From a virus, in the IMG/VR virus record IMGVR_UViG_3300042934_000631, positions 1-64,000 of that record: a stretch of DNA of 64,000 nucleotides; one strand, written 5' to 3'. The position numbers and the translations under genes were made by a program. The notes below the pieces were generated by a model, which had not been told where the DNA came from, searched no databases, and saw only the letters and a program-made list of their open reading frames with translations. Positions 1,278-46,981 of this stretch are shown here, piece after piece (position 1 is the stretch's first letter; the number at the start of each line of letters is the position of its first letter).

Positions 1278-2342
1278 ATGCCTACGACAACACCGAAACT
1301 AGGATTACCGCGTCCAACAGGAACGGATAACGTAACTCGTGTGAGTCAGCAAGAGTTAATTGACGCAATAGACAACAACGCGGCCAAACTCGCGCATACG
1401 CACGATGGGACGGCCGGCAACGGTTCGAAAATAGCGGCCGCTAATATTACGGTTGCGGATACGGGCAACAACTTCGCGGCCACCGACGTTGAGGGAGCGC
1501 TAACCGAGCTTTTTACAAATGTCAGTAACGGTAAGACGGCGGTCGCTTCCGCTATTACTGGCAAGGGCGTAGCAGCCTCGGGGAGCGACACATTTACGCA
1601 ATTAAGCACGAAGATTAACGCAATCAGCACGGGGACCGGCAACGCAGTGGCTGCGGATGTTCTCGCGCCTAAGACGTTCACGAACGGTTCAAGCGCGGGC
1701 CTTACCGGTACTATGCCGAACAGAGGCGCGGTCACTATCACGCCGAGCGCGTCAAGTCAGGCGATAACTGCCGGATACCATAACGGATCGGGTTCGGTGG
1801 CGGCCGTAGTAGTGCCGGCTGCGAACGTATTAACGGGTACGACGATCGCGGGAACGGCGGGGACGATGCCTAATAGGGGGGCGGTGTCAATCACGCCTAG
1901 TACGTCGGCGCAGACGATCCAATCCGGATTTCACAATGGTAGCGGCGTAGTCAGCGGCGATGTTAACTTAATTTCGGCTAATATACTGGCTGGCGTTTCC
2001 ATATTCGGAGTCGCCGGAAATGTAATCGCGGGTAAACGGTCAGCGTCGGGAACGGGCACTCTGAGCGGCTCTACCGCTGCTGTTAGTGGGCTTTCGTTTA
2101 CGCCGAGCGTAGTAATCGTTGAATCTAACTATACCGGAATAAGCCAGGCCGTCCGGGCTGTGTACCAAACTGGAGCGATACATGCGGGATTAAACGAAGC
2201 TCAGTATCGGTGGAACTACGGAAATAATAGTCCGAGTGCGTGGAATTCTTATCCGTTTACAGTTTCCGCGGGATCTTTTTCCGTTACTCTGGCTAATGGC
2301 GGAACCTCTGGGTCTACATTTTCATGGATTGCTATAGAGTAG
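1278..2342 (+). CDS. Tail fibre / receptor-binding protein with GTMPNRGAV repeats
   Basis: The ATG follows an AGAGGAGG site. The 354-residue product starts with the collar-like stretch PKLGLPRPTGTDNVTR seen in phage tail fibres. It has two imperfect repeats of about 55 residues containing GTMPNRGAV.ITPS and GFHNGSG or GYHNGSG, and ends in a Gly/Ser/Thr-rich beta domain. These repeats recur in fibres of Firmicute phages and are taken to form a trimeric shaft. Its place right after the baseplate gene fits host recognition. The receptor is unknown. Confidence 0.8.
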   Translation: MPTTTPKLGLPRPTGTDNVTRVSQQELIDAIDNNAAKLAHTHDGTAGNGSKIAAANITVADTGNNFAATDVEGALTELFTNVSNGKTAVASAITGKGVAASGSDTFTQLSTKINAISTGTGNAVAADVLAPKTFTNGSSAGLTGTMPNRGAVTITPSASSQAITAGYHNGSGSVAAVVVPAANVLTGTTIAGTAGTMPNRGAVSITPSTSAQTIQSGFHNGSGVVSGDVNLISANILAGVSIFGVAGNVIAGKRSASGTGTLSGSTAAVSGLSFTPSVVIVESNYTGISQAVRAVYQTGAIHAGLNEAQYRWNYGNNSPSAWNSYPFTVSAGSFSVTLANGGTSGSTFSWIAIE

Positions 2343-2356
2343 GGAGGTAAATTTTA

Positions 2357-2752
2357 ATGGCTTTCATAGGTAGAAAAATCTATTTTGAAAAAACTACGGG
2401 TAACTTAATTTTGGACACTGGGGAACGTTCAGGCGATGTAGTTGCGACTACAGCTGAGCAGGATTTTAATTCCTACAGTGTTTTAAAAGACCGGATACCC
2501 GAAACTGTAGGCATTAAAACTTTGGAGTACGGACAGTTTGCAGACGACTTCAATCAATGTTCTGGGTTTCGCGTAAATCCTGGAACTTTAAGTTTGGAAT
2601 TCAGTTTCCCAGATCCAACCGCCCCTCAGGAGCCGATATATCGAAAACCTTTGACAGAAGAGGTAGAAGATCTTAAAGCGGAAAACGCGGACCTAAAATC
2701 CCGCATAAGCGACGTTGAGATGTTTGTCGCGGACATGATCGGGGGCGCTTAA
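2357..2752 (+). CDS. Tail fibre-associated protein with C-terminal coiled coil
   Basis: 131 residues with a compact N-terminal domain (IGRKIYFEKTTGNLILDTGE) and a heptad-rich C-terminus (EEVEDLKAENADLKSRISDVE) that predicts a coiled coil. Proteins with this start are common between the fibre and XkdX-like genes of Bacillales phages (XkdW-like position). A role in fibre assembly or as a minor tail part is inferred from context. Codon use is slightly more AT-rich than in its neighbours. Confidence 0.6.
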   Translation: MAFIGRKIYFEKTTGNLILDTGERSGDVVATTAEQDFNSYSVLKDRIPETVGIKTLEYGQFADDFNQCSGFRVNPGTLSLEFSFPDPTAPQEPIYRKPLTEEVEDLKAENADLKSRISDVEMFVADMIGGA

Positions 2753-2754
2753 CC

Positions 2755-2925
2755 ATGGCATTGGCATCGTATAAAGTTCGAATTGTAGCGAACGCTTGTA
2801 TTACGAGGTATGACGCAGGTGAACGTGAAATAACGGATATCATCGAGAGCTACCGACTTAATCCGGAGGATGCAGATCTTGTTAAAGCGGAAGTCGCCGC
2901 AAAACGGCCGGATATTGTAGTTTAA
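2755..2925 (+). CDS. XkdX-like small tail protein
   Basis: 56-residue reading frame starting two bases after the previous stop. Length and position between fibre genes and holin match XkdX-family proteins of PBSX-like phages. The gene is too short for most ORF filters, but it closes the gap in an otherwise tightly packed operon. The function of XkdX is not established. Confidence 0.6.
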   Translation: MALASYKVRIVANACITRYDAGEREITDIIESYRLNPEDADLVKAEVAAKRPDIVV

Positions 2926-2939
2926 CGGGAGGTCTAACG

Positions 2940-3353
2940 ATGAAAACAACGATTTTTAATAGCGTAGCCGGGGGATTAGGCGCGTTTGTAACGTACGCAT
3001 TCGGCGGATGGACGGAGCTCATGTCGTTCTTCCTACTTGCGGTAATGATCGATATTGTGACGGGGCTGCTCGCGTCAGTCAAGGAAGGCAGCGGCATCTC
3101 CAGCGCAGTAGGATTCGATGGACTCGCAAAGAAAGTGTTCATGTTAATCGCGATAATGCTCGCGCATAGAGTCGACGTTCTTATGGGCACGTCATTTATT
3201 ATGGACGGCGCCATCTACTGTTACCTCGCGAACGAACTCGTATCAATCACCGAAAATTACGGGCGGATGGGCTTGCCGCTGCCGGACGCACTTAAACGTG
3301 TAATTTCCGTGCTTAAAGATCGCGGAAGTAAGGACGGAGGCGATGCGCAGTGA
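2940..3353 (+). CDS. Phage holin (holin_4_1 / toxin-secretion family)
   Basis: 137 residues with three hydrophobic segments (about 10-25, 28-45 and 65-85) and the family-typical stretch ELMSFFLLAVMIDIVTGLLA, then a charged C-terminus. Holins of this family make the membrane holes that release the endolysin at the end of infection. An AACGGGAGG site precedes the ATG, and the gene overlaps the following peptidase gene by a GTGA junction. It begins the lysis cassette. Confidence 0.85.
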   Translation: MKTTIFNSVAGGLGAFVTYAFGGWTELMSFFLLAVMIDIVTGLLASVKEGSGISSAVGFDGLAKKVFMLIAIMLAHRVDVLMGTSFIMDGAIYCYLANELVSITENYGRMGLPLPDALKRVISVLKDRGSKDGGDAQ

Positions 3354-4099
3354 TACAGCGCACGTACGCTCTTAAGAAGGACCGCGTTGATGCGCGCGAC
3401 TTAATGTTTGCGCCGAAATCAGCCACGGTTTTTCCTGACACCGTGGATTTGCGTCCGTATGACGCCGTCCCTATTTACGATCAAGGCTGGCTCGGTTCAT
3501 GTACGGCGAATGCAATCTGCGCGCTTCATTCGTTCCTACAAAAGCGTGTCGACGGATATTACTTCAACCTATCGCGCCTATTCCTGTACTGGCACGAGCG
3601 GAACCTCGAAGGAACGGTCGACTACGATGCGGGCGCCTATATTCGCGATGGTATGAAGGTGCTGCAGAAGATCGGTTGTGCCGGCGAATCAACGTTTCCT
3701 TACGTTGAGTCAACGTTTCGAAATAAGCCGTCAGCCGAGGCGGAAGCGACCGCAGCCTACCACAAGATCGCGGAATACCGCCGACTTAACGCGAATAATC
3801 CGACGCAGCTTAAAGAATCACTCGCGTCAGGCTATCCGGTCGTTCTAGGCATCGAGATTTACGAAAGTTTCGAGTCGGCAGACGTTGCTAAGACGGGGAT
3901 CGTCCCGTTCCCTGACCGATCGAAAGAACAGTTTCTCGGTGGTCACGCAGTTCTGGCGATGGGGTATACGACGTTTAACGGAATTGAATATATTATTTGC
4001 CGTAACTCTTGGGGACCGGATTGGGGCGATAGGGGTTATTTTTACTTACCGATGCAATACGTCGGGCGCATGATAAGCGATATGTGGACTGGGAGGTAA
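3350..4099 (+). CDS. Papain-like (C1A) cysteine peptidase in the lysis cassette
   Basis: The 249-residue protein has the complete C1A active site: Gln45 of the oxyanion hole, Cys51 in GWLGSCTAN, His199 in GGHAVLAMGY and Asn219 in RNSWG. It has no signal peptide and no propeptide of usual size. Papain-like peptidases are common in bacteria but unusual between a holin and an endolysin gene. The GTG start overlaps the holin stop by four bases, so the two are translationally coupled. It may cleave a surface protein or peptide crosslink during lysis, or mature another lysis protein; neither is shown. Confidence 0.85.
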   Translation: MIQRTYALKKDRVDARDLMFAPKSATVFPDTVDLRPYDAVPIYDQGWLGSCTANAICALHSFLQKRVDGYYFNLSRLFLYWHERNLEGTVDYDAGAYIRDGMKVLQKIGCAGESTFPYVESTFRNKPSAEAEATAAYHKIAEYRRLNANNPTQLKESLASGYPVVLGIEIYESFESADVAKTGIVPFPDRSKEQFLGGHAVLAMGYTTFNGIEYIICRNSWGPDWGDRGYFYLPMQYVGRMISDMWTGR

Positions 4100-7129: not shown

Positions 7130-7531
7130 ATGGCGCACACGATGTCTATACCGGATTTCGTCCGTCATGGTTGGCGTGAAGAGACGGCGATTGACGCATT
7201 TCTCGCGCATCTCGACCGCAATAAAATTAAGTACCGCATCGTCGGGACCGCGATCATCTTATTTCTCGGATTCGTCGACGTATCTTACGCGTCAACCGGC
7301 ATCGATGTCGGCGCGATGAAGCTGTATAAGCGGATTATAAACGTAGGTAAGTGGATCATTATCATCAAAGGCGGTATTGATACGATTAAGTCCGGTGTGG
7401 ATGGCGACTATCCTGGCGTAAAGACAAAGCTGCTCGGATACGGTCTAACATACGCGAGTCTATGGGCGTTGCCGTGGCTATTCGGTGAGATCGATAAGTT
7501 ATTCGGGGAAATGGAGGCGTCGGCGCAATGA
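7130..7531 (+). CDS. VirB2/TrbC-like small membrane protein
   Basis: 133 residues: cytoplasmic N-terminus, a signal-like segment ending VDVSYAS (about 42-58), then two hydrophobic segments around IINVGKWIIIIKGGIDTIK and YGLTYASLWALPWLFGEI. This is the layout of VirB2/TrbC pilin-like proteins found next to VirB4 ATPases in Gram-positive conjugative elements. It overlaps the M23 peptidase gene by four bases. A role in a membrane channel is inferred from layout and neighbours. Confidence 0.55.
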   Translation: MAHTMSIPDFVRHGWREETAIDAFLAHLDRNKIKYRIVGTAIILFLGFVDVSYASTGIDVGAMKLYKRIINVGKWIIIIKGGIDTIKSGVDGDYPGVKTKLLGYGLTYASLWALPWLFGEIDKLFGEMEASAQ

Positions 7532-8190
7532 CAACGCTGAGCTTTACGTTAGCACCACGTATCACGGCGCCTTTCGGCAGCATCGACGACGTTCATAAAA
7601 CGCCACATACCGGTATAGACTACGCCATGCCGATCGGGAGTAAAGTGTATGCACCGGAAGGCGGCATCGTATCGCGCGTTGTTGATTACGGTGACACTTC
7701 GCTCGGCAAAGCGGTATTCGTTAAGACTCGCGCAGGCTACCAGTATATATTCGGGCATCTATCGGATAACACGATCGTTCACGAAGGCGACCGCGTCCAT
7801 GCCGGTGATCTAATTGCGCTGTCGGGATCAACCGGATTTTCGACCGGTCCGCATCTCCACGTTGGACTCGTTAATAAGGCGGGCGCCTTCGTGGATCCTT
7901 CAGCTGGAACTACTGACCGCGGCCACCTCGGTATTCTCGGTAAGGTTCTCGAGAAATCGTACGACCAGGCGACGGATTCCGTACAGGAACACGCGCGATC
8001 CGTTGCGTACGATACGGCGATGGGTTTCTTGAAAGGCGTTGGCGACTTGCTGCTCGACCTATCGTATTCTATCGCGTTAATTGGCGGCGGACTCTGCATC
8101 ATATTCGGAGTCGCCGGATGGGATAAGGGCAAGCGGTGGGCGGGGATTTTAACGGTGGCTTACGTATTCATTAAGTATTTGGCAACGTGA
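7528..8190 (+). CDS. M23-family metallopeptidase with C-terminal membrane anchor
   Basis: 220 residues. The LytM/M23 zinc motifs are intact: His27 and Asp31 in HTGID, His77 in FGHLS and His109/His111 in PHLHVG. M23 enzymes cut peptidoglycan crosslinks. Two hydrophobic segments follow (about 172-195 and 200-218), so the enzyme is membrane-bound rather than a free endolysin. Its position between VirB2-like and VirB4-like genes fits the wall-opening enzyme of a secretion or conjugation apparatus (VirB1-like role). Confidence 0.8.
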   Translation: MTTLSFTLAPRITAPFGSIDDVHKTPHTGIDYAMPIGSKVYAPEGGIVSRVVDYGDTSLGKAVFVKTRAGYQYIFGHLSDNTIVHEGDRVHAGDLIALSGSTGFSTGPHLHVGLVNKAGAFVDPSAGTTDRGHLGILGKVLEKSYDQATDSVQEHARSVAYDTAMGFLKGVGDLLLDLSYSIALIGGGLCIIFGVAGWDKGKRWAGILTVAYVFIKYLAT

Positions 8191-8343: not shown

Positions 8344-8562
8344 ATGGTTTTGAAAATTAATGGAAAAGAAGTTTCGCGTACTGGTATTATAATCAAAAAG
8401 TCGGCGGAAATACTGGATGATGTAGGCTGTTTCTTGGTAAATTCATTCCACAGCAGTATTGAATTAGCAATAAAAATTGGTTTGCTCGTTTTCCTATTCC
8501 CGTACATTTCAAAATTCATATCCATATTCATTGAAATACTGAAAGGGGCGGCGGGGCTATGA
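8344..8562 (+). CDS. Small single-span membrane protein, AT-rich
   Basis: 72 residues with one or two hydrophobic segments (about 37-68, LAIKIGLLVFLFPYISKFI). A strong GAGGAGGGG site precedes the ATG. Its base composition is clearly more AT-rich than that of both neighbours, which suggests separate acquisition. The 3' end overlaps the VirB4-like gene by four bases. It could be a small membrane partner of the ATPase; function unknown. Confidence 0.6.
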   Translation: MVLKINGKEVSRTGIIIKKSAEILDDVGCFLVNSFHSSIELAIKIGLLVFLFPYISKFISIFIEILKGAAGL

Positions 8563-10931
8563 ATCGCGCCATCTCTCTACGCGAAGCAATCCGCATCGTC
8601 CGTCCGGAGTATGTATTTCTGCGGTTGAAACCGAACAACTCCATCCGCAATGAACAGACGCATAAACTAGCGCGGACGATTGCGACGCTTCATAAGAACG
8701 TACTCGAATCCGTTAAGCGCGATGAAATCCGTGTAATGAACGTACTAGGCAAACGTTTATTCATTCCGACACGACTCACGTACGAGGCGCCGTCCAAAGT
8801 CGCGTATATGATTTACATCGAAAAGAAGCGCGTCGAGTTTTATTTCATCGTACCGCGTACGTATTTATCCGTTATCAAAGAGAAGATGTCCGACGTTTGG
8901 TCGTCTATTACCGTAGAGGAAGTCGTAGCCCTTCCGGAATTCGACCGTGACGCGACGAAGTATCAAATGTCCTATACGAAGGAAGATGCGCTCGCCCTCG
9001 CAACCAACCGCGCTAATAGCCATCTCCTGTACTCAACTCTAAACGTTATCGACGTATTAGAGGAAGGCGACCGCGTCGGCGTTTACTACAACTTCGTGCC
9101 GGCCTCGCAGTTTACCTGGCGCAGCACTTACCGCGCGACTATCGATAAGGTACGCGCCAATAAGCCGGTTGATCGCGATAAAACGGGCACGGGATACCTT
9201 GCGAAAATGGCCGTCACTCTCCTCGTTAATGTGGCGGAAACAGTGGCGGAAGTGCTCGGCAGCAAACGGAGGGAGGGCGGTGTCAACGCGTTTGAGGAAG
9301 CGCTAGAGCGCATGAACGGTGGCAAACGTATCAGCGAGTCTACACAACGTAAGGCGACCGCGTCCATTGTCGATACGCAGATACTCGTTCTGAGCCGGAG
9401 CGAAGACGCGTTAAGACAGCGAAATAACGCGCGCAGTCTGGCGCAAAGTTTTGATACGGTTACGGAGGACAATGCGCTAAAACACCGCAATTATAGCGGC
9501 AAATTTAGCTATACGGACTATAGGATCCGCGGGGCCACCGTTAACAAAACGGGCGACGAAGAGTGTCAGAGTTTTATCGCGCTGGCCGGACGCGACGTGC
9601 TCGAGCGGTTCAACTTTATCGATCGCGTAGAAACGCAGGAGACGGAGGTGCCGGACGATCTGCAGGCGGGCGTCATGTGCATCGGCACCAACCGTTTTCG
9701 CGGCAAGGATACGCCGGCCTACTTAAGCAACGATCGCGAATTCCGTAATCTACTTACGCTTCTTATCGGACCGTCACGCGCCGGCAAATCGAACCTTATC
9801 GCGAATCTTACGGTGGATGCGATCGAGGCGGGCGAGTGCGTGATTATCTTCGATTTTATCGAAAACTGCGAACTCAGCGATTCGGTGGCGGCATTATTCC
9901 CGCGCGATAAAGTGCTCGAAATACGCTGCGATGATTACGCGAGAATGCAAGGGCTCGGCTATAACGAAGTCGGCCGTACGGATGACGTGTTCAAGGCGTA
10001 TGTGAACGCGAAGGATCAGACGTCGAATGTGCTTGCGCTCGTCAATTCGATTAACTCGAAAGAAAGTCCGCTAAGTCCGAAGATGGAACGGTACTTAGAG
10101 AGCGCCAGCCTCATCGTATTTATCAGCTACGGAAGTATAAAGGACGTTTTCAGCGTATTGCAGAATCATAAGGTTCGCGCGGAGTTTCTAGCGAAGGTAC
10201 CGCGTAGGCAATACGAAAATCTCGAAGAGGCTATGGATAGCCTGCGCGAGCTCGACGATCGCGACAAGAAAACCGGCGTGGTAGAGGGAACGAAGCATAA
10301 TCTGATTGACGGAATTATCGACCGCCTCAATATTTTAAAACGGAATCCTTACATGGAGCTCATGCTTAAGAAGGACACGTCACGCAACGTAAACTTAGCG
10401 GAAGAAATGCAGAAGGCGCAGTTGATTACGATTAAGATGCCGCAGTCCATGTTTACGACGGACGGCGAGAAGGACGTCTGCACGACGTATTGGATGACGA
10501 AGATATGGCTCGCGTTACAGGTTCGCGCCGATAAGATACGCGATAAGGCGAAACGTACGAAGGTCAACCTCGTGGTCGACGAATTGTACCAGGTCGAGAA
10601 TACCGAGCGCTTCCTGACCGCTAAGTTGTCGCAAATAGCGAAGTTTATTATGAAGCCGATCGTCAGCTGCCATTATATCAATCAGCTGCGTTTCATGCGC
10701 GATGAATTACGGAGTGCGAACACGTCGTATATGCTGATCGCCGGCTGCGACAAACAGAATTTCGAAGAGTTAAAGAGCGAGCTCTATCCGTTCACAGCGA
10801 AAGATTTGAGTTCGTTACCGCGTTACCACAGTATGAATTACATCAAGAATGCGGACGGCTACACGAGATTTATTACGAAATTGCCGGGCCGCGTAGAGAA
10901 CCGCGCTCGTAAAAGTGAAACTTCAGTCTAG
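8559..10931 (+). CDS. VirB4/TraC-like (HerA-FtsK superfamily) ATPase
   Basis: 790 residues. Walker A is GPSRAGKSN at about 404-412 and Walker B LVVDELYQV at about 669, followed by a conserved block (LTAKLSQIAKFIMKPIVSCHYINQLRF) like the arginine-finger region of the VirB4/TraC group. The N-terminal 380 residues form the mixed alpha/beta domain that docks VirB4 to the membrane complex. VirB4 powers pilus assembly or DNA transfer. No relaxase, coupling protein or VirB6-like protein is visible, so it is not a complete conjugation system. A packaging-type ATPase is an alternative. Confidence 0.75.
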   Translation: MNRAISLREAIRIVRPEYVFLRLKPNNSIRNEQTHKLARTIATLHKNVLESVKRDEIRVMNVLGKRLFIPTRLTYEAPSKVAYMIYIEKKRVEFYFIVPRTYLSVIKEKMSDVWSSITVEEVVALPEFDRDATKYQMSYTKEDALALATNRANSHLLYSTLNVIDVLEEGDRVGVYYNFVPASQFTWRSTYRATIDKVRANKPVDRDKTGTGYLAKMAVTLLVNVAETVAEVLGSKRREGGVNAFEEALERMNGGKRISESTQRKATASIVDTQILVLSRSEDALRQRNNARSLAQSFDTVTEDNALKHRNYSGKFSYTDYRIRGATVNKTGDEECQSFIALAGRDVLERFNFIDRVETQETEVPDDLQAGVMCIGTNRFRGKDTPAYLSNDREFRNLLTLLIGPSRAGKSNLIANLTVDAIEAGECVIIFDFIENCELSDSVAALFPRDKVLEIRCDDYARMQGLGYNEVGRTDDVFKAYVNAKDQTSNVLALVNSINSKESPLSPKMERYLESASLIVFISYGSIKDVFSVLQNHKVRAEFLAKVPRRQYENLEEAMDSLRELDDRDKKTGVVEGTKHNLIDGIIDRLNILKRNPYMELMLKKDTSRNVNLAEEMQKAQLITIKMPQSMFTTDGEKDVCTTYWMTKIWLALQVRADKIRDKAKRTKVNLVVDELYQVENTERFLTAKLSQIAKFIMKPIVSCHYINQLRFMRDELRSANTSYMLIAGCDKQNFEELKSELYPFTAKDLSSLPRYHSMNYIKNADGYTRFITKLPGRVENRARKSETSV

Positions 10932-11859: not shown

Positions 11860-11925
11860 TCGTGCTCACCACCTATTCAAAATTTTGTTACGTTTCGTTT
11901 CGCCGTATAATTATTATACCGTAAA

Positions 11926-11961
11926 TTTACGTATACGTATACATCAACGTTTACGTTTACG
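11926..11961. repeat. Hexamer repeat cluster A (partition-site-like)
   Basis: Six tandem hexamers of the TTTACG/TATACG type in register. The cluster spans the stop codon of the ribbon-helix-helix gene and encodes its last residues. It shares the core TATACA-TCAACG-TTTACG with the other clusters. Confidence 0.8.
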
Positions 11962-12342
11962 TAGATATTGTTCGAGCGCCTCATTAAATATCCGCGCCTT
12001 TTCTCCGCGTTCGCCAACCGTTTCCTTTTCGATCTGCTCAACGAGGTCCTTACGGATCCAGACCGTCTGGCGCGTATGGTTATCCTCGAATTTAGGGCGC
12101 CGCTCTTTCGGAGGCTCTACGTCCGCCGGCGGCTTTTCGTCGACGTTTACGTGTACGTTTACATCATCGTTTACGTTTACGTATACGGGCTCCGCCGCCG
12201 GTTCTGGCGCGGGCTTGGCGTTTTCCTTGCGATCGTCTTCGATAATAGTCGAGTCGATAAGTTGCGCATGTACGCTGCTCGCGCCACTCTGTTTTATCTT
12301 CTGCTTAATCGCATCCATTGCGTTCGGCTTCGGTTTAGACAC
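11944..12342 (-). CDS. Ribbon-helix-helix partner of ParA (ParB/CopG-type centromere binder)
   Basis: 132 residues. The C-terminal 45 residues (HTRQTVWIRKDLVEQIEKE, ARIFNEALEQYL) match a ribbon-helix-helix DNA-binding fold. The N-terminal half is a flexible, Pro/Ala/Glu-rich linker. The GTG start overlaps the parA stop by eight bases, as in type Ib partition operons where a small RHH protein binds repeats and activates ParA. Residues about 53-67 (VYVNVNDDVNVHVNV) and the C-terminal RKRKR are encoded by the same hexamer repeats it probably binds. Confidence 0.75.
   Translation of the reverse strand: MSKPKPNAMDAIKQKIKQSGASSVHAQLIDSTIIEDDRKENAKPAPEPAAEPVYVNVNDDVNVHVNVDEKPPADVEPPKERRPKFEDNHTRQTVWIRKDLVEQIEKETVGERGEKARIFNEALEQYLRKRKR
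12146..12187. repeat. Hexamer repeat cluster B inside the RHH gene
   Basis: Seven consecutive hexamers: TTTACG, TGTACG, TTTACA, TCATCG, TTTACG, TTTACG, TATACG. They are read on the minus strand as alternating Val-Asn/Val-Tyr/Val-His dipeptides, so a probable protein-binding site doubles as coding sequence. Confidence 0.8.
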
Positions 12343-13102
12343 GCGCGATCAACTCCTCTACAAATTCGCGATACTGGGCGACCGCCTGCTTAAGCTCCGG
12401 ATTATCGTTAAACCCGTTAATGGAAAGGCGGCCCGTCGCAGCTGTACGTGTGATGACGGTTTTAAAGCACAACTCCGCGTATTCTTCCTCAACGAGTTCG
12501 ATCAGCGCTTTATTATCCGTCCGGCGGACGTCGATCATGCAGCGGAGGATTCCCGCAACTTGCATCTCACGGTTAACGATTTCTTGAATATGAACGCACG
12601 TCTCAAGAAACCGGCTGAGCGCGGAATAGCAGAATTTGCTCGCTTCGAACATCGCCACAACGATATCGGCGGCGGCCAGCGCATTCAGCGTTTGTTCGCC
12701 GAGGGCCGGCGGCGTATCGATGATAACGTAATCATAATCGTCCAGGACCGGCGCGAGCGTTTCCATTAGGACGAGCGATTTGTTTCCGCGGTATGCGTTG
12801 GATGGCGAATACAGCCACGAAGCGAATCGCGCGATATGATCCTCGGCCGGCAAGATATGTAAACGATCGTTAATTGCGTGTATGTACGGCCGCGCGTCCT
12901 GAACCTGCAGCGCTTCAAAAACGGTGTTCTTATGGAAATCGTAGATGTCGCGTTGTGTTAATAACTCCGTGAGATTTCCTTGCGAATCCATATCGACCGC
13001 AAGTACGCGGTGGTTTTCGCTAAGCAAATGCGCTACGATTCCGGAGGTTGTCGTTTTAGAGCTGCCGCCTTTTTGAATACCGAATGTTATGATCTTCGCC
13101 AT
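12335..13102 (-). CDS. parA: ParA-family partition ATPase
   Basis: 255 residues with the deviant Walker A KGGSSKTTT near residue 11, Walker A' VLAVDMDSQGNLT, and Walker B DYVIIDTPPALGEQTLNAL. ParA binds DNA non-specifically and moves the partition complex. The protein lacks an N-terminal HTH, which fits type Ib systems with a small RHH partner, encoded just downstream. GGAGGT precedes the ATG by 8 bases. Hexamer cluster C lies 23 bp upstream, so the operon is probably autoregulated by the RHH protein. Confidence 0.9.
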   Translation of the reverse strand: MAKIITFGIQKGGSSKTTTSGIVAHLLSENHRVLAVDMDSQGNLTELLTQRDIYDFHKNTVFEALQVQDARPYIHAINDRLHILPAEDHIARFASWLYSPSNAYRGNKSLVLMETLAPVLDDYDYVIIDTPPALGEQTLNALAAADIVVAMFEASKFCYSALSRFLETCVHIQEIVNREMQVAGILRCMIDVRRTDNKALIELVEEEYAELCFKTVITRTAATGRLSINGFNDNPELKQAVAQYREFVEELIARV

Positions 13103-13124
13103 GATTTAGAACCTCCGATATAAG

Positions 13125-13142
13125 TTTACGTATACGTATACG
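13125..13142. repeat. Hexamer repeat cluster C at the parA promoter
   Basis: TTTACG-TATACG-TATACG upstream of parA. Its place suits an operator for autoregulation of parA and its partner. Confidence 0.75.
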
Positions 13143-13192
13143 TTGGTTAATATCTATATAATACAAGCATTTCGCGAAATATACAATACTTG

Positions 13193-13264
13193 TTTACGTC
13201 GACGTATACGTTTACAATTACAATTACGTATACATCAACGTTTATGTATACGTATACGTAAACA
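13193..13264. repeat. Hexamer repeat cluster D, 12 units, centromere candidate
   Basis: Twelve hexamers in register (TTTACG, TCGACG, TATACG, TTTACA, ATTACA, ATTACG, TATACA, TCAACG, TTTATG, TATACG, TATACG, TAAACA). It is the longest cluster and lies between parA and the DnaA boxes, so it is the best candidate for the partition site or Rep iterons. Confidence 0.8.
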
Positions 13265-13338
13265 ATTAAGAAACCCCTTGCAAAATCTATCGAAGCATGG
13301 CAATATTATCTGTGTACAAAGGGCAAGGAAATATTTAG

Positions 13339-13606: not shown

Positions 13607-14272
13607 ATGTCCGCAAACCTTTCCGCAATCACATCCGTATTCGAACTCGCCACTGACGACTTTTCTCCGTACGATCGCGTGGTCCTCATCTATTTACGTA
13701 CCCTCTCGCTGGAGCATTCATCCGTTTTTCCTTCCTACGAAACAATCGCGTCCAAATGCGGTATGGTTCGCCGTACTGTCATTAACGTGATAAAGCGCCT
13801 CATTAAGCATGGACTTATCGCGAAAGAATCCCGCTTTAAAGACGTGCCTGGCACCGACCGTCCGCGTCAAACGTCCAACGAATACATAACAACTACAGCA
13901 CCGGCAGTGTCGTCAAATTCACCCGTAGTAACGGACGAGCTGCCGCCGTCAAATTCACTCTATAATTCAAATTCTTTTAAACATAAACAAGAAGAAGATG
14001 AAAATATAAATATCGCGCCAAATCCGCCTTATCTTCCGTTCGAAAACGAAATCAAACGAAACAAAATCACGCCAGAAATCCGTATAGCCATCCTCGAACA
14101 AGTAGCGGCATCCGGCGCTGACATCTGGCACTATAGCGCGGAAGCCATCCGTCGCGCGCTCAAAAAGGCTACGAACCGTATGCGTCTGGGCAGCGGTCTC
14201 TATAATCCTCCGAAATGGATCGCGGCAGCTCTCCGTAATGAGCAGATGAATCTCGATATAGCTGGCGCTTAG
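13607..14272 (+). CDS. Rep-like winged-helix replication protein
   Basis: 221 residues from the ATG behind AAGGAG. The N-terminal 85 residues form an HTH_36-type winged helix (SYETIASKCGMVRRTVINVIKRLIKHGLI) common in replication initiators of Gram-positive plasmids and phages. A Ser/Thr/Asn-rich linker follows, then a C-terminal helical domain. Position just after the DnaA boxes and repeats supports initiation at that origin. A transcription factor is the alternative. Confidence 0.7.
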   Translation: MSANLSAITSVFELATDDFSPYDRVVLIYLRTLSLEHSSVFPSYETIASKCGMVRRTVINVIKRLIKHGLIAKESRFKDVPGTDRPRQTSNEYITTTAPAVSSNSPVVTDELPPSNSLYNSNSFKHKQEEDENINIAPNPPYLPFENEIKRNKITPEIRIAILEQVAASGADIWHYSAEAIRRALKKATNRMRLGSGLYNPPKWIAAALRNEQMNLDIAGA

Positions 14273-27951: not shown

Positions 27952-28857
27952 ATGGCGAAGTTAAACGGTGTAACAACGGTATCCGAGCGTATTCAATATA
28001 ACGGTGCGGAGTACGTGAAATCCGATGATGCTGCGGTTGTTGGCGATATCGTGCGGCATGATGCGGAAGGATACACGAGCATTCCAGAGGGAGCGTACTA
28101 CGAAGTGTTGCGCGCTAATAAGGCGGGCGAACCGAAGATTATCGATGAGGACGGCGACGAGATTACGGTGGATAGCGATTTTGCGGTATTCAAACGCGTA
28201 GAGGAAGTCGTCCAGCCTCAGTATCGCGAAGTCAAACGTAAAGCTATCGTAGGCGAGCGCATTCGTATCGTAGCGGCTCAATATACGTCCGGTAGATATC
28301 AGAACGGAGACGAATTCACTGCAATGCGTTTATCCGATTCCGGCGGAGTCGAATTTGTGACGGGGAAAGGCGAGGGAGGGTACGCGTATCAGCGAGAATA
28401 CGTCGTGCTCGAACCGGTGCAGGCTGACGTGAAGAAGGCGGAGGATGAGCCGCAACCAGGCGATAAGGTTCGTTCGAAGATGTACCCAGACACGCTGCAT
28501 ACGTTAGTTAAACGACTACCACAGCACGACGGAGATCGATACGGGAAGGCGTGGGATATTACACCGGGCTCATGGCTCGGAGAGAAACAATTCTATATCG
28601 TTGAACGCGCCGTAGAGGCCGCCAAAGCCGCGGAAGAAGCAAAATGGAGCGCGATCGGACGGAAAGTCGGCGAATACAAAGTCGGCGATATTGTTAGGAC
28701 AACGGATTCTGTCGGGCATAAGGTTGGAACGATTGGCGTCATTTGCACGGTTGACGATACGGATATGCCACGCGTAAAGGCTAACGGCACAGCCATGTGG
28801 CACACCGTCGAGCTCATCGCGCCAGTCGAATCGCTATTCAATCGCTCCGAGGCGTAG
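27952..28857 (+). CDS. Hypothetical protein with KOW/SH3-like repeats
   Basis: 301 residues. Several segments of the type VGDIVRHDAEGYTSIPEGAYYEV, GDKVRSKMYPDTLHTLV and VGDIVRTTDSVGHKVGTIGVI look like small beta-barrel modules. The protein at 40363 shares this style. Role unknown; it precedes the DNA polymerase genes. Confidence 0.6.
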   Translation: MAKLNGVTTVSERIQYNGAEYVKSDDAAVVGDIVRHDAEGYTSIPEGAYYEVLRANKAGEPKIIDEDGDEITVDSDFAVFKRVEEVVQPQYREVKRKAIVGERIRIVAAQYTSGRYQNGDEFTAMRLSDSGGVEFVTGKGEGGYAYQREYVVLEPVQADVKKAEDEPQPGDKVRSKMYPDTLHTLVKRLPQHDGDRYGKAWDITPGSWLGEKQFYIVERAVEAAKAAEEAKWSAIGRKVGEYKVGDIVRTTDSVGHKVGTIGVICTVDDTDMPRVKANGTAMWHTVELIAPVESLFNRSEA

Positions 28858-28859
28858 AC

Positions 28860-30638
28860 ATGCAAACGCCAAAGCTGACGCTAGCAGCGAAGCAGCCGAC
28901 AACGAGCGCGGTCAAAGACGCGGCGCAACGGAAGGCGGCCGCGGTGCCGGAAACAGCCGCGGAGGCGTTCGATCGAATTGGCGCGATGTCGCTTACAGAT
29001 AAGGAACGCGCGCAGTTTAACGCAGCAAAATCCGCTTATTTCTCCGGGCAACTAGGCAATGTCCGGAGCGATGGCGGAAAGTGGACGAAAGGTGACGTAC
29101 TCGCAGCGGGCTCCCTCCTCTTGCGCCAACAGGCGGAGGGACTGCGTGAGGAACGTATCCGCGAAGTGCTGGCGAGCAAACCTACGAATTACTTCATTCT
29201 TACGAGTGATACCGAGCTCCCAGCGTTCGTCGACCGGTTGCGCGAAGAGTGCCGGCGCCAAATGGCGGAGTGGCGCGATCGCTTCCGCATCCTAGGCGTT
29301 GATACGATGACGGCAGGCGACTTCGAGGGAACCGGCGTTGATACGTACATCGACTTATCCATCGGATTCAGCGTATGGCTACCGCTGCTTAACGAGGGCT
29401 ACTACTTACCGTATGGGCACGTCAGCGGATTCGACGTCCCTTACGCGTTTAAGGAAGGCGATCCGCAGCTAACACGTTCGAAAGTAATCGCGGCAATTTC
29501 CCCGTATCTGACGCGGCCGAATCACGGCAAAACGTTTCATATGGGATCGGCACGCTATGACCTCCACGTCGCGATAAAGGACGGTTACGAGATCGCCGGC
29601 TGCGTGTGGGATACGTTAGATGCCATGCGGCATTTAAATGAGCACGAGGCGGCCTACGGTTTGAAACCGCTGATCGCGAAGTATGGGCCGGCATTCGGCG
29701 TAACAGGCACCGTCTACGCTTTCGAAGACCTTTTCGGTAATCGATCGCCGGCACCATATAACGTTGAGCTTGTCGGCATCTACGCGATTAAGGACGTACT
29801 CTACGGATGGAAGCTGTTCGAATGGCAATACGAAGCGATGAGGAACGCGCCTGGCCGCCTACTCGACTGTTACGCACAGATTGACTCGAAGCTGCCGGAA
29901 ACTGACGTCTTCATGGCGCGATGCGGCTTCGAGATTGATATCGCGGGACTCAAAGCGCTAGAAGACGAATTTACTCCGCTACTCGAAAAAGCGCGCGCTG
30001 ACGTAGTTACATCGTACGGCATCGACGCGGAGTTTGTCCGTAAGATGGATCGACACATTAACGCGAGAGCAGTCGCGGAGTGGATCGATAAACAGCGGAA
30101 GAAAATCGCCAGGCATGCGGAAGACATCGCCAAACAACGCGCTATTATTGCGGAGTGTGAGGCGACCGGTAAAACGAAGCTTAAGCGGTACACGGAGGCT
30201 GTCGCCAAACTTGCGCAATTAAAGGCGGAGGTTTTGGCGGATCCGACCGAAGCGAACGCGCCGCTTACGATTACGGAGTTTTCGATTACGAACGGGAATC
30301 ATCTCGCGTACCTAATCTACGACGTACTCGGTATCGAAGACGTAACCGGCCGCTTTAAGCGCGGGAAGTCACGGTCTACGGCTGCGGACGTTCTCGATGT
30401 TTACTACGAGGAAGAGGACGCACTGAAACCGCTGGCGATCGTTGCCGCGTACGAGAAGCTGCTTAATACGTACGTGATGAAGATTCCGCACGCACTTGAG
30501 CGAGACGGACGGATCCATACGGAATATAAGGCTGGCGGAACTGCGACAGGTCGCTATAGTAGCGCGGGGTACAACGGTCGACCTATCGATATATTATCCG
30601 AATTTGAAACGGAGGACGACGCTAGTGTTAGCAATTGA
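28860..30638 (+). CDS. DNA polymerase A, N-terminal subunit (3'-5' exonuclease, start of palm/thumb)
   Basis: 592 residues. The 3'-5' proofreading motifs are present: DFEGTGVDTYID at about 155, MGSARYDLHV at about 222 and Tyr-x3-Asp in GIYAIKDVLYG at about 301. The end reaches the polymerase motif GTATGRYSS. The reading frame stops inside a loop that normally leads to QNMPSK. The rest of the enzyme is a separate overlapping gene in the +1 frame, so the polymerase is split. It copies the phage genome with the helicase and primase. Confidence 0.85.
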   Translation: MQTPKLTLAAKQPTTSAVKDAAQRKAAAVPETAAEAFDRIGAMSLTDKERAQFNAAKSAYFSGQLGNVRSDGGKWTKGDVLAAGSLLLRQQAEGLREERIREVLASKPTNYFILTSDTELPAFVDRLREECRRQMAEWRDRFRILGVDTMTAGDFEGTGVDTYIDLSIGFSVWLPLLNEGYYLPYGHVSGFDVPYAFKEGDPQLTRSKVIAAISPYLTRPNHGKTFHMGSARYDLHVAIKDGYEIAGCVWDTLDAMRHLNEHEAAYGLKPLIAKYGPAFGVTGTVYAFEDLFGNRSPAPYNVELVGIYAIKDVLYGWKLFEWQYEAMRNAPGRLLDCYAQIDSKLPETDVFMARCGFEIDIAGLKALEDEFTPLLEKARADVVTSYGIDAEFVRKMDRHINARAVAEWIDKQRKKIARHAEDIAKQRAIIAECEATGKTKLKRYTEAVAKLAQLKAEVLADPTEANAPLTITEFSITNGNHLAYLIYDVLGIEDVTGRFKRGKSRSTAADVLDVYYEEEDALKPLAIVAAYEKLLNTYVMKIPHALERDGRIHTEYKAGGTATGRYSSAGYNGRPIDILSEFETEDDASVSN

Positions 30639-31707
30639 CGACGCGAATTATCACGCGATAGTTAAGAAACTTATCGCAGACGAGCGGAAAGTGCCGAAAG
30701 GTTTTAATGCGCAAAACATGCCGTCAAAGGGCGCAGGTAATCGCGTACGTAATTGCTTTGTCCCTAAACGCGGATTCACATTCGTCGGAGCTGACCTGGG
30801 TCAGATAGAACCGCGCGTGATGAGCGCCATCATGTGGGATCGATACGGCGATAATTCACTTCGTCAGATTTTCCTTGATGGCGTAGATCTCTATACGACG
30901 ATGGCGATGATGACGTTCAATATCGCGGAAGAGTTCTGCGTCGATAAAGCGTACGATCCAACCGGCACGTTCAAACCGCGCTCGATGATGAAGACGGGCG
31001 TACTCGCAGTTTCATACGATCAATCACCGAAGGCCTTCGCGAAGAAGATGAATGTTACGGACGAAGTGGCAGCGTACTTCTTCGAAAACTTCGACCGCAC
31101 ATTTCCGTCATTCAAAACGATGGTGGCAGATATCCGCGAGTTTATGCGGAAGTACGGTTACGTGGAGACGTTATTTGGAAGAAAACGGCGCTTTCCGGAT
31201 TACGCTTCGGTTGCTGCAGCAGCGTCAAAAAACGAACAACGGTTGATCAGGTTGTATACGGAGCGTAAGCAACTCCGTAATAAGGAAACGCCGACGCAAC
31301 GAGATGCACAACGACTAATCGCGGTCCAGGACGAAATCGATATATTGTCGGAGAAACGCGGACTCATCGGTTATTGGGAACGTGCAGCCTTCAACGCGTG
31401 TATTCAAGGGACCGGCGCGGATATCTTGAAGATGATCGGAAACCGCAATGCTCGGATATGTAAAGAGCGCGGATGGGAGCTAAACGCGTCCATACACGAC
31501 GAAGCGCTCAACTCGATTCCTGACGAGCAGCTTACGGAAGAAACGATCGATTTAATTAACGATGTAATGACGCAAACGGCGACGCTAAGTGTACCGTTAG
31601 TGACCGATATCGTAATTATGAAGCGCTGGATGCAGGAATTTAAGCCTGGCGAATGGGACTTCGTTAACTGTCGGCCGAAGGATGAGTTCGCGAATAGATA
31701 TGCATAA
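30625..31707 (+). CDS. DNA polymerase A, C-terminal catalytic subunit
   Basis: 360 residues. It begins with a GTG that has GGAGG 9 bases upstream, inside the end of the N-terminal gene (14-bp overlap). It carries QNMPSK, motif A (VGADLGQIEPR), motif B (RSMMKTGVLAVSYDQ) and motif C (SIHDEAL), so all catalytic residues lie in this part. The ribosome site and GTG make re-initiation the likely mechanism. No slippery heptamer is seen. Confidence 0.85.
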   Translation: MLAIDDANYHAIVKKLIADERKVPKGFNAQNMPSKGAGNRVRNCFVPKRGFTFVGADLGQIEPRVMSAIMWDRYGDNSLRQIFLDGVDLYTTMAMMTFNIAEEFCVDKAYDPTGTFKPRSMMKTGVLAVSYDQSPKAFAKKMNVTDEVAAYFFENFDRTFPSFKTMVADIREFMRKYGYVETLFGRKRRFPDYASVAAAASKNEQRLIRLYTERKQLRNKETPTQRDAQRLIAVQDEIDILSEKRGLIGYWERAAFNACIQGTGADILKMIGNRNARICKERGWELNASIHDEALNSIPDEQLTEETIDLINDVMTQTATLSVPLVTDIVIMKRWMQEFKPGEWDFVNCRPKDEFANRYA

Positions 31708-46707: not shown

Positions 46708-46803
46708 CGTAAAAAAGCCTAAATCCCGCGTGGGACTAAGTGAGTCGGCGTTTTGGGTGCGAAATTATTTCTTAGTCTTATAGATGGCGCGGTGCTCCGT
46801 ACG

Positions 46804-46827
46804 CGTAAACGTAGATGTATACGTAAA
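46804..46827. repeat. Hexamer repeat cluster E (remote, minus orientation)
   Basis: Read on the minus strand: TTTACG, TATACA, TCTACG, TTTACG. It is the same core as the clusters near parA, 34 kb away, and lies just ahead of the small terminase gene. Confidence 0.65.
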
Positions 46828-46981
46828 CATCGCGCGATTACTTGTATTGTGAGTCCGTATGCTGTATTACGTTATGAAACGATTCACAATATTCACAATT
46901 AATTCGCGAGGAACGTAGTGACGAAGCGGACGGGGCGCAGTTCCCCGTTATTCTTTTAATATAACGGAGGTGAACGTTAAT

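Follow-up and report, generated by a model that had tools for sequence, protein, structure and literature searches.

Tandem hexads with a GTNNAC core surround a parA gene and the small gene behind it on a 64,000-nucleotide stretch of viral DNA (the window), and one block of them lies wholly within the reading frame of the small gene, whose product is the putative centromere-binding partner of ParA. The DNA coding for the linker of this protein resembles the hexad in the promoter of the respective locus more closely than the amino acid sequence alone would demand. We consider it rather likely that the module is an omega-like ParABS system, in which the hexads would serve as operator and as centromere (parS) and are partly embedded in the reading frame of the binder.

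The window comprises 64,000 of the 68,411 bases of IMG/VR record IMGVR_UViG_3300042934_000631. As it codes for terminase, portal, major head protein, contractile sheath and tape measure together with DnaB, primase, DNA polymerase A and ribonucleotide reductase, it was assigned to a tailed phage. DNA polymerase A is represented by two overlapping ORFs (28797-30638 and 30496-31707), each matching polymerase families, which might reflect a split gene, a frameshift or an intron-like arrangement. The phage further encodes a papain-family cysteine protease (3350-4099), an actin-like protein (ALP_N, PF17989; 6074-6901), possibly a second segregation or cytoskeletal gene, and a 790-aa protein (8559-10931) with a weak TrwB-type match (phrog_5156, function unknown) near an M23 peptidase (7528-8190); these last two are possibly conjugation-like or DNA-translocation genes. 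Its ParA shares 97% identity with that of a 69-kb Paenibacillus planticolens contig (L014), the name of which includes 'Circ' and on which a terminase gene (48% identity) is likewise present. The element probably exists as a phage-plasmid.

The genes of the module and the neighbouring initiator-like gene are arranged as follows.

12335-13102, minus strand: parA, coding for a 255-aa Walker-type ATPase (ParA, AAA_31)
11944-12342, minus strand: putative gene of an RHH-like centromere-binding protein of 132 aa, its GTG start overlapping the parA stop
13607-14272, plus strand: replication-initiator-like gene (HTH_36, phrog_270), divergent from parA with array E in between

The parA product matched PF13614 (1.3e-32), the ParA-like family phrog_164 (1.3e-49) and, in the PDB, ParA/Soj and Orf delta'. 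It is a short ParA lacking an N-terminal HTH, with AAA_31 spanning residues 3-182 of the 255 aa. The small protein consists of a conserved N-terminus, a variable disordered linker and a C-terminal beta-alpha-alpha domain (about residues 88-131). Its best sequence match in the PDB was omega of pSM19035, at a weak E value of 0.087, and hhalign of the family profile against the RHH segment of omega gave a probability of 75 with 39% identity over 38 aa. Relatives of the protein showed weak RHH_3, 56B_RHH or RelB-type matches (E 0.0001-0.01); for the window protein itself, Pfam at gathering level and PHROGs yielded no match. AlphaFold2 predicted residues 81-130 with a pLDDT of about 90 or more, the C-terminal domain being modelled as an extended stretch followed by helices 98-107 and 114-131, and assigned a pLDDT under 50 to residues 53-57 and 61-66, in the region translated from array B. 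The RHH strand, which is expected to pair only in the dimer, was not recognised as such in the model, which comprises one chain, and searches with the model by Foldseek (PDB) and VIA-align gave no matches. The small protein encoded after parA is thus likely to belong to the RHH type.

The repeat unit is best read as a hexad with a GTNNAC core, contiguous and with a period of 6. Arrays were scored with a position matrix trained only on the non-coding arrays of eleven other loci, the window being left out. The following features were obtained.

11925-11966, no strand: array A, 7 hexads, score 33.4; straddles the RHH stop codon, encodes the RKRKR tail and enters the next promoter region
12139-12186, no strand: array B, 8 contiguous hexads, score 36.1; lies wholly in the RHH reading frame and is translated as VYVNVNDDVNVHVNVD of the disordered linker
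13124-13141, no strand: array D, 3 hexads plus degenerate flanks, located after the -10-like box and before the start codon of parA
13192-13263, no strand: array E, the main array with 12 hexads, upstream of the parA -35-like box
46799-46828, no strand: fifth array, 5 hexads, score 20.1; intergenic, ahead of the structural gene block
13158-13186, minus strand: promoter-like pair TTGTAT (13186-13181), 17 nt, TATTAT (13163-13158), found by eye between E and D
11913-11918, minus strand: TATAAT box, found by eye directly after array A, with the next small ORFs of the minus strand following it

The four highest-scoring arrays of the window were E (58.0, referring to 13192-13275), B, A and D (20.2, referring to 13118-13159), whereas 60 dinucleotide shuffles of the whole window reached a maximum of 16.5, none of them attaining 20. 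These four arrays are the clusters which the preliminary description had placed at 11926, 12146, 13125 and 13193, and their places were confirmed; the fifth array, a possible second operator or parS, is absent from it. GTNNAC occurs 269 times in the window, and 14 of the 17 pairs lying 6 apart fall within 11900-13300. Spacings of 4, 5, 7, 8, 9, 10 and 11 account for 0-2 pairs each (one pair at 7), and 11 pairs lie 12 apart, that is, two periods. Outside the window, in the other 4.4 kb of the record, no array scored above 12.2 with the same matrix. Tandem Repeats Finder by itself detected array B only, and weakly. An exact threefold TTTACG pattern was rejected as the repeat, since the repeats are mixed and it had no match in the genome. 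The TTGTAT-TATTAT pair has a weak -35 box and was not listed by a consensus promoter scan.

Clusters A and B had both been placed within the RHH gene. This holds entirely for B, but for A only in the part 11944-11966, the rest lying beyond the stop codon (11944-11946); the peptides attributed to them, VYVNVNDDVNVHVNVD from B and the C-terminal RKRKR from A, are indeed encoded there. The core TATACA-TCAACG-TTTACG, said to be shared by all four arrays, is exact in A and carries one mismatch in E, whereas B is merely similar (TTTACATCATCGTTTACG) and D lacks it, including TCAACG.

Searches with ParA in plasmids, phages, viral contigs and genomes yielded about 57 non-duplicate loci in which parA is followed by a small gene, and the pattern recurs across parA-RHH modules of the Bacillales. 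Paenibacillus relatives carry GTNNAC arrays both in the promoter of parA and at, or immediately behind, the stop codon of the RHH gene; at this latter position, corresponding to array A, hexads were found in L001, L002, L004, L007, L009, L014, L015 and L022. The window and L014 have the module in common, but their linkers contain 8 and 3 hexads, respectively, the difference being an in-frame gap. Several relatives have no linker hexads at all, and, together with the three of L014, this indicates that the module can do without the intragenic block. Strong downstream arrays without a linker array occur in L001, L004, L006 and L022, and the reverse was found in L016 and the Alicyclobacillus loci. 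On this comparison of sequences, the linker and downstream positions may be interchangeable for the array block in a sample that is small, related and non-independent.

Whether the encoded peptide accounts for the hexads was evaluated with a synonymous null, in which the protein was held constant and codons were redrawn from the usage of the locus itself. The window RHH gene exceeded this null (p=0.0039, 10,000 draws), the observed score being 36 compared to a synonymous mean of 28, so that the peptide alone accounts for part of the score. Among relatives (1000 draws), p was 0 for L014, L016 and L017 and 0.003 for L015, and for L009 none of 2000 recodings reached the observed score. In the short-linker relatives L001, L004, L006, L007, L019 and L022 there was no excess over the null; L002, also with a short linker, gave p=0.018 for 2 hexads. 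A simpler test of shared 8-mers was concordant for the window, L014, L016, L053, L055 and L040. A motif-free test at period 6 singled out 14 of 57 RHH genes at p<=0.01 compared to none of the parA controls, but this per-locus test was noisy, as its matrices drifted to base composition.

Loci of the Alicyclobacillus type as well as L023 and L024 carry a different promoter hexad, NYTARY, for which a matrix was trained solely on promoters of other loci. Their linkers contain 89 (L053), 88 (L054), 96 (L055) and 68 (L057) contiguous hexads and scored 122-248 compared to synonymous maxima of 40-127; 15-26 NYTARY hexads were found in L023, L024 and L051, and in all seven loci the linker lay above every or nearly every synonymous recoding. 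Serine codons follow the hexad phase, with TCN at odd and AGY at even codons, which in L055 amounted to 32/1 versus 0/21 (p=4e-14) and was also significant in L057 (p=5e-9) and L053 (p=7e-8). A protein-level spacer provides no reason for such a phase. When the motifs were exchanged, GTNNAC-clade linkers exceeded the null with the GTNNAC matrix only and Alicyclobacillus linkers with the NYTARY matrix only; the sole exceptions were L023 and L024, which preferred NYTARY but were also above the null with GTNNAC. In a comparison of shared 10-mers among 55 loci, the own promoter ranked in the top 3 of 55 for 14 RHH genes (p=1e-6), compared to one in the parA-gene control. Promoter motif and linker DNA thus co-vary across clades. 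The suggestion that a DNA binder carries its own sites inside its gene gains support from these sequence comparisons: the gene follows that of a ParA ATPase, its RHH-like product is nearest to omega, hexads recur at the parA promoter and the RHH 3' end of relatives, and linker hexads track those of the promoter at the same locus when the motif differs between clades.

Further motifs were seen by eye in L040, L112, L123 and L111. In L123, the gene of a 405-aa binder (2246-3463) contains long near-identical repeats with GCTAGC, which is also present in its own parA promoter, the spacing being wider than 6. In L052, parA is preceded by a long and almost perfect array of (CAGTGT)n (upstream of parA, about 1-100), and related hexads occur in the gene after parA.

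For the working of the module we propose that contiguous hexads of 6 bp are most likely the binding sites of the small RHH-like protein. Arrays E and D at the parA promoter and A after the RHH gene would represent operators and centromere, and array B in the linker frame a further centromere block. Bound dimers would coat the arrays and stimulate the ATPase of ParA, allowing copies to be moved on the nucleoid; transcription of parA-RHH would be repressed by them as well. By analogy with pSM19035, E and D around the TTGTAT-TATTAT pair may serve autorepression and partition, as may A beside its TATAAT box, and array B, with no promoter nearby, may contribute to partition or to storage of the binder; it may be under current selection. 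Since a hexad equals two codons, arrays can grow and shrink in frame, and the disordered linker is therefore partly the translation of a DNA array; in-frame multiplication of hexads, which heptads would not allow, would be the simplest account of why arrays collect there.

The arrays might instead be iterons of the neighbouring replication initiator, the ParA and RHH genes merely lying beside an origin. The initiator-like gene on the far side of array E would fit this, as would the rep genes close by in many relatives. However, GTNNAC hexads flank parA-RHH beside differing initiators, namely the HTH_36 type in the window, a 'replication initiator protein A' in L004 and L006 and another HTH protein in L005, and the arrays at the RHH 3' end and in the linker follow the parA-RHH clade and not the Rep type. 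Iterons are, moreover, usually longer, helically spaced units, whereas the units observed here are contiguous and of 6 bp. We regard the iteron reading as improbable. Very improbable in our judgement is that the linker repeats are a low-complexity spacer at the protein level whose DNA match arises by coincidence from V/N or S/N codons. The predicted disorder of the window linker, the richness of linkers in N, S, V and D and the share of the window score set by the peptide are in line with it, but the synonymous nulls and the serine codon phase require a cause at the DNA level, the hexad signal persists once codon usage and peptide are fixed, and the match to the own promoter was obtained with parA as control.

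More weight has to be given to the possibility that array B is a neutral copy: hexads of the promoter or the downstream array would have entered the gene through slippage or recombination and expanded there because a disordered linker tolerates in-frame hexads, and they may bind the RHH protein while nothing is needed of them. We think this rather unlikely but take it as a serious rival. The differing hexad number in the window and L014 argues for it, as does the ParA tree, on which presence of the linker array (labelled partly by eye) takes at least 7 changes and has therefore been gained and lost frequently. In the one close pair compared, L053 and L054, substitutions preserved hexads no better than random placement (p=0.27), and linker changes were mostly non-synonymous (30 to 5), whereas differences in parA were almost all at third positions. 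Against a neutral copy, phase is held over up to 96 mutually diverged hexads, linker arrays with different motifs recur in many lineages, and downstream and linker arrays seem to be alternative placements, although in a small, non-independent sample. We retain the omega-like partition module as the preferred explanation. Its stronger form, in which the linker would be a translated centromere, with series of as many as about 96 in-frame hexads that are bound by the protein itself, constitute a main part of the parS of some lineages and change with the promoter operators, has in our view an even chance of being correct.

If so, a coding region would be shaped by the binding preference of its own product and the linker written by demands at the DNA level, joining operator, centromere and gene in one DNA stretch. 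The loci would provide a natural series, from 0 to about 96 hexads and with several motifs, for the co-evolution of repeat number and specificity in partition, and synonymous recoding would offer a simple experimental handle on a combined gene and centromere. It would also call for caution, as Asn/Ser/Val-rich linkers may not reflect selection on the protein.

Among known systems, the module resembles most closely the delta-omega ParABS of pSM19035 (type Ib), which combines a small ParA with an RHH binder, in the window a likely RHH protein, and with many contiguous short repeats overlapping promoters. In pSM19035 each omega dimer binds one heptad, parS arrays and promoters overlap, and full activation of ParA takes an uninterrupted run of at least four repeats (PMC9499535), compared to 7, 8 and 12 hexads in arrays A, B and E. 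Contiguous short repeats overlapping promoters are found in the window too, where E and D flank the promoter-like boxes of parA and presumably act as parS. The units differ, being 7-bp WATCACW heptads in the promoters of pSM19035 but 6-bp GTNNAC or NYTARY hexads here; in the window, the core is GTNNAC instead of WATCACW and the period 6 instead of 7, with 17 GTNNAC pairs at 6 and one at 7. Unlike in pSM19035, hexads are located not only in promoters but also across the stop codon and inside the linker of the binder. TP228 ParF-ParG-parH and other RHH systems combine a small ParA, an RHH partner with a disordered N-terminal arm and a repeat centromere near the operon. In these TP228-type systems, the centromere lies upstream of the genes and its repeats differ from the hexads described here.

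A literature search restricted largely to non-subscription papers returned no hexad parS, no RHH linker made of an array and no co-variation of promoter and linker. SCP2 already provides a case of parS within the binder gene, and omega one of a repeat parS; the 6-bp period, the array in a disordered linker and the promoter-linker co-variation, not found described, are apparently new. Lambda O provides an example of an origin inside the gene of its initiator. Similarly, oriL of P1 lies in repL (PMC9948254). These cases are alike in that a gene contains the site on which its protein acts, but they concern replication and not partition. The ParA-ParT-parS system of the Streptomyces plasmid SCP2 has parS inside the parT coding sequence (PMC12260392), as the presumed parS here lies inside the gene of the presumed centromere binder. 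However, SCP2 uses a clamp-type ParT with a single inverted repeat of 18 bp and has neither tandem array nor RHH nor repeat-derived linker, whereas the protein described here is small and RHH-like and its site a tandem array of hexads, which places the module outside the ParATS type.
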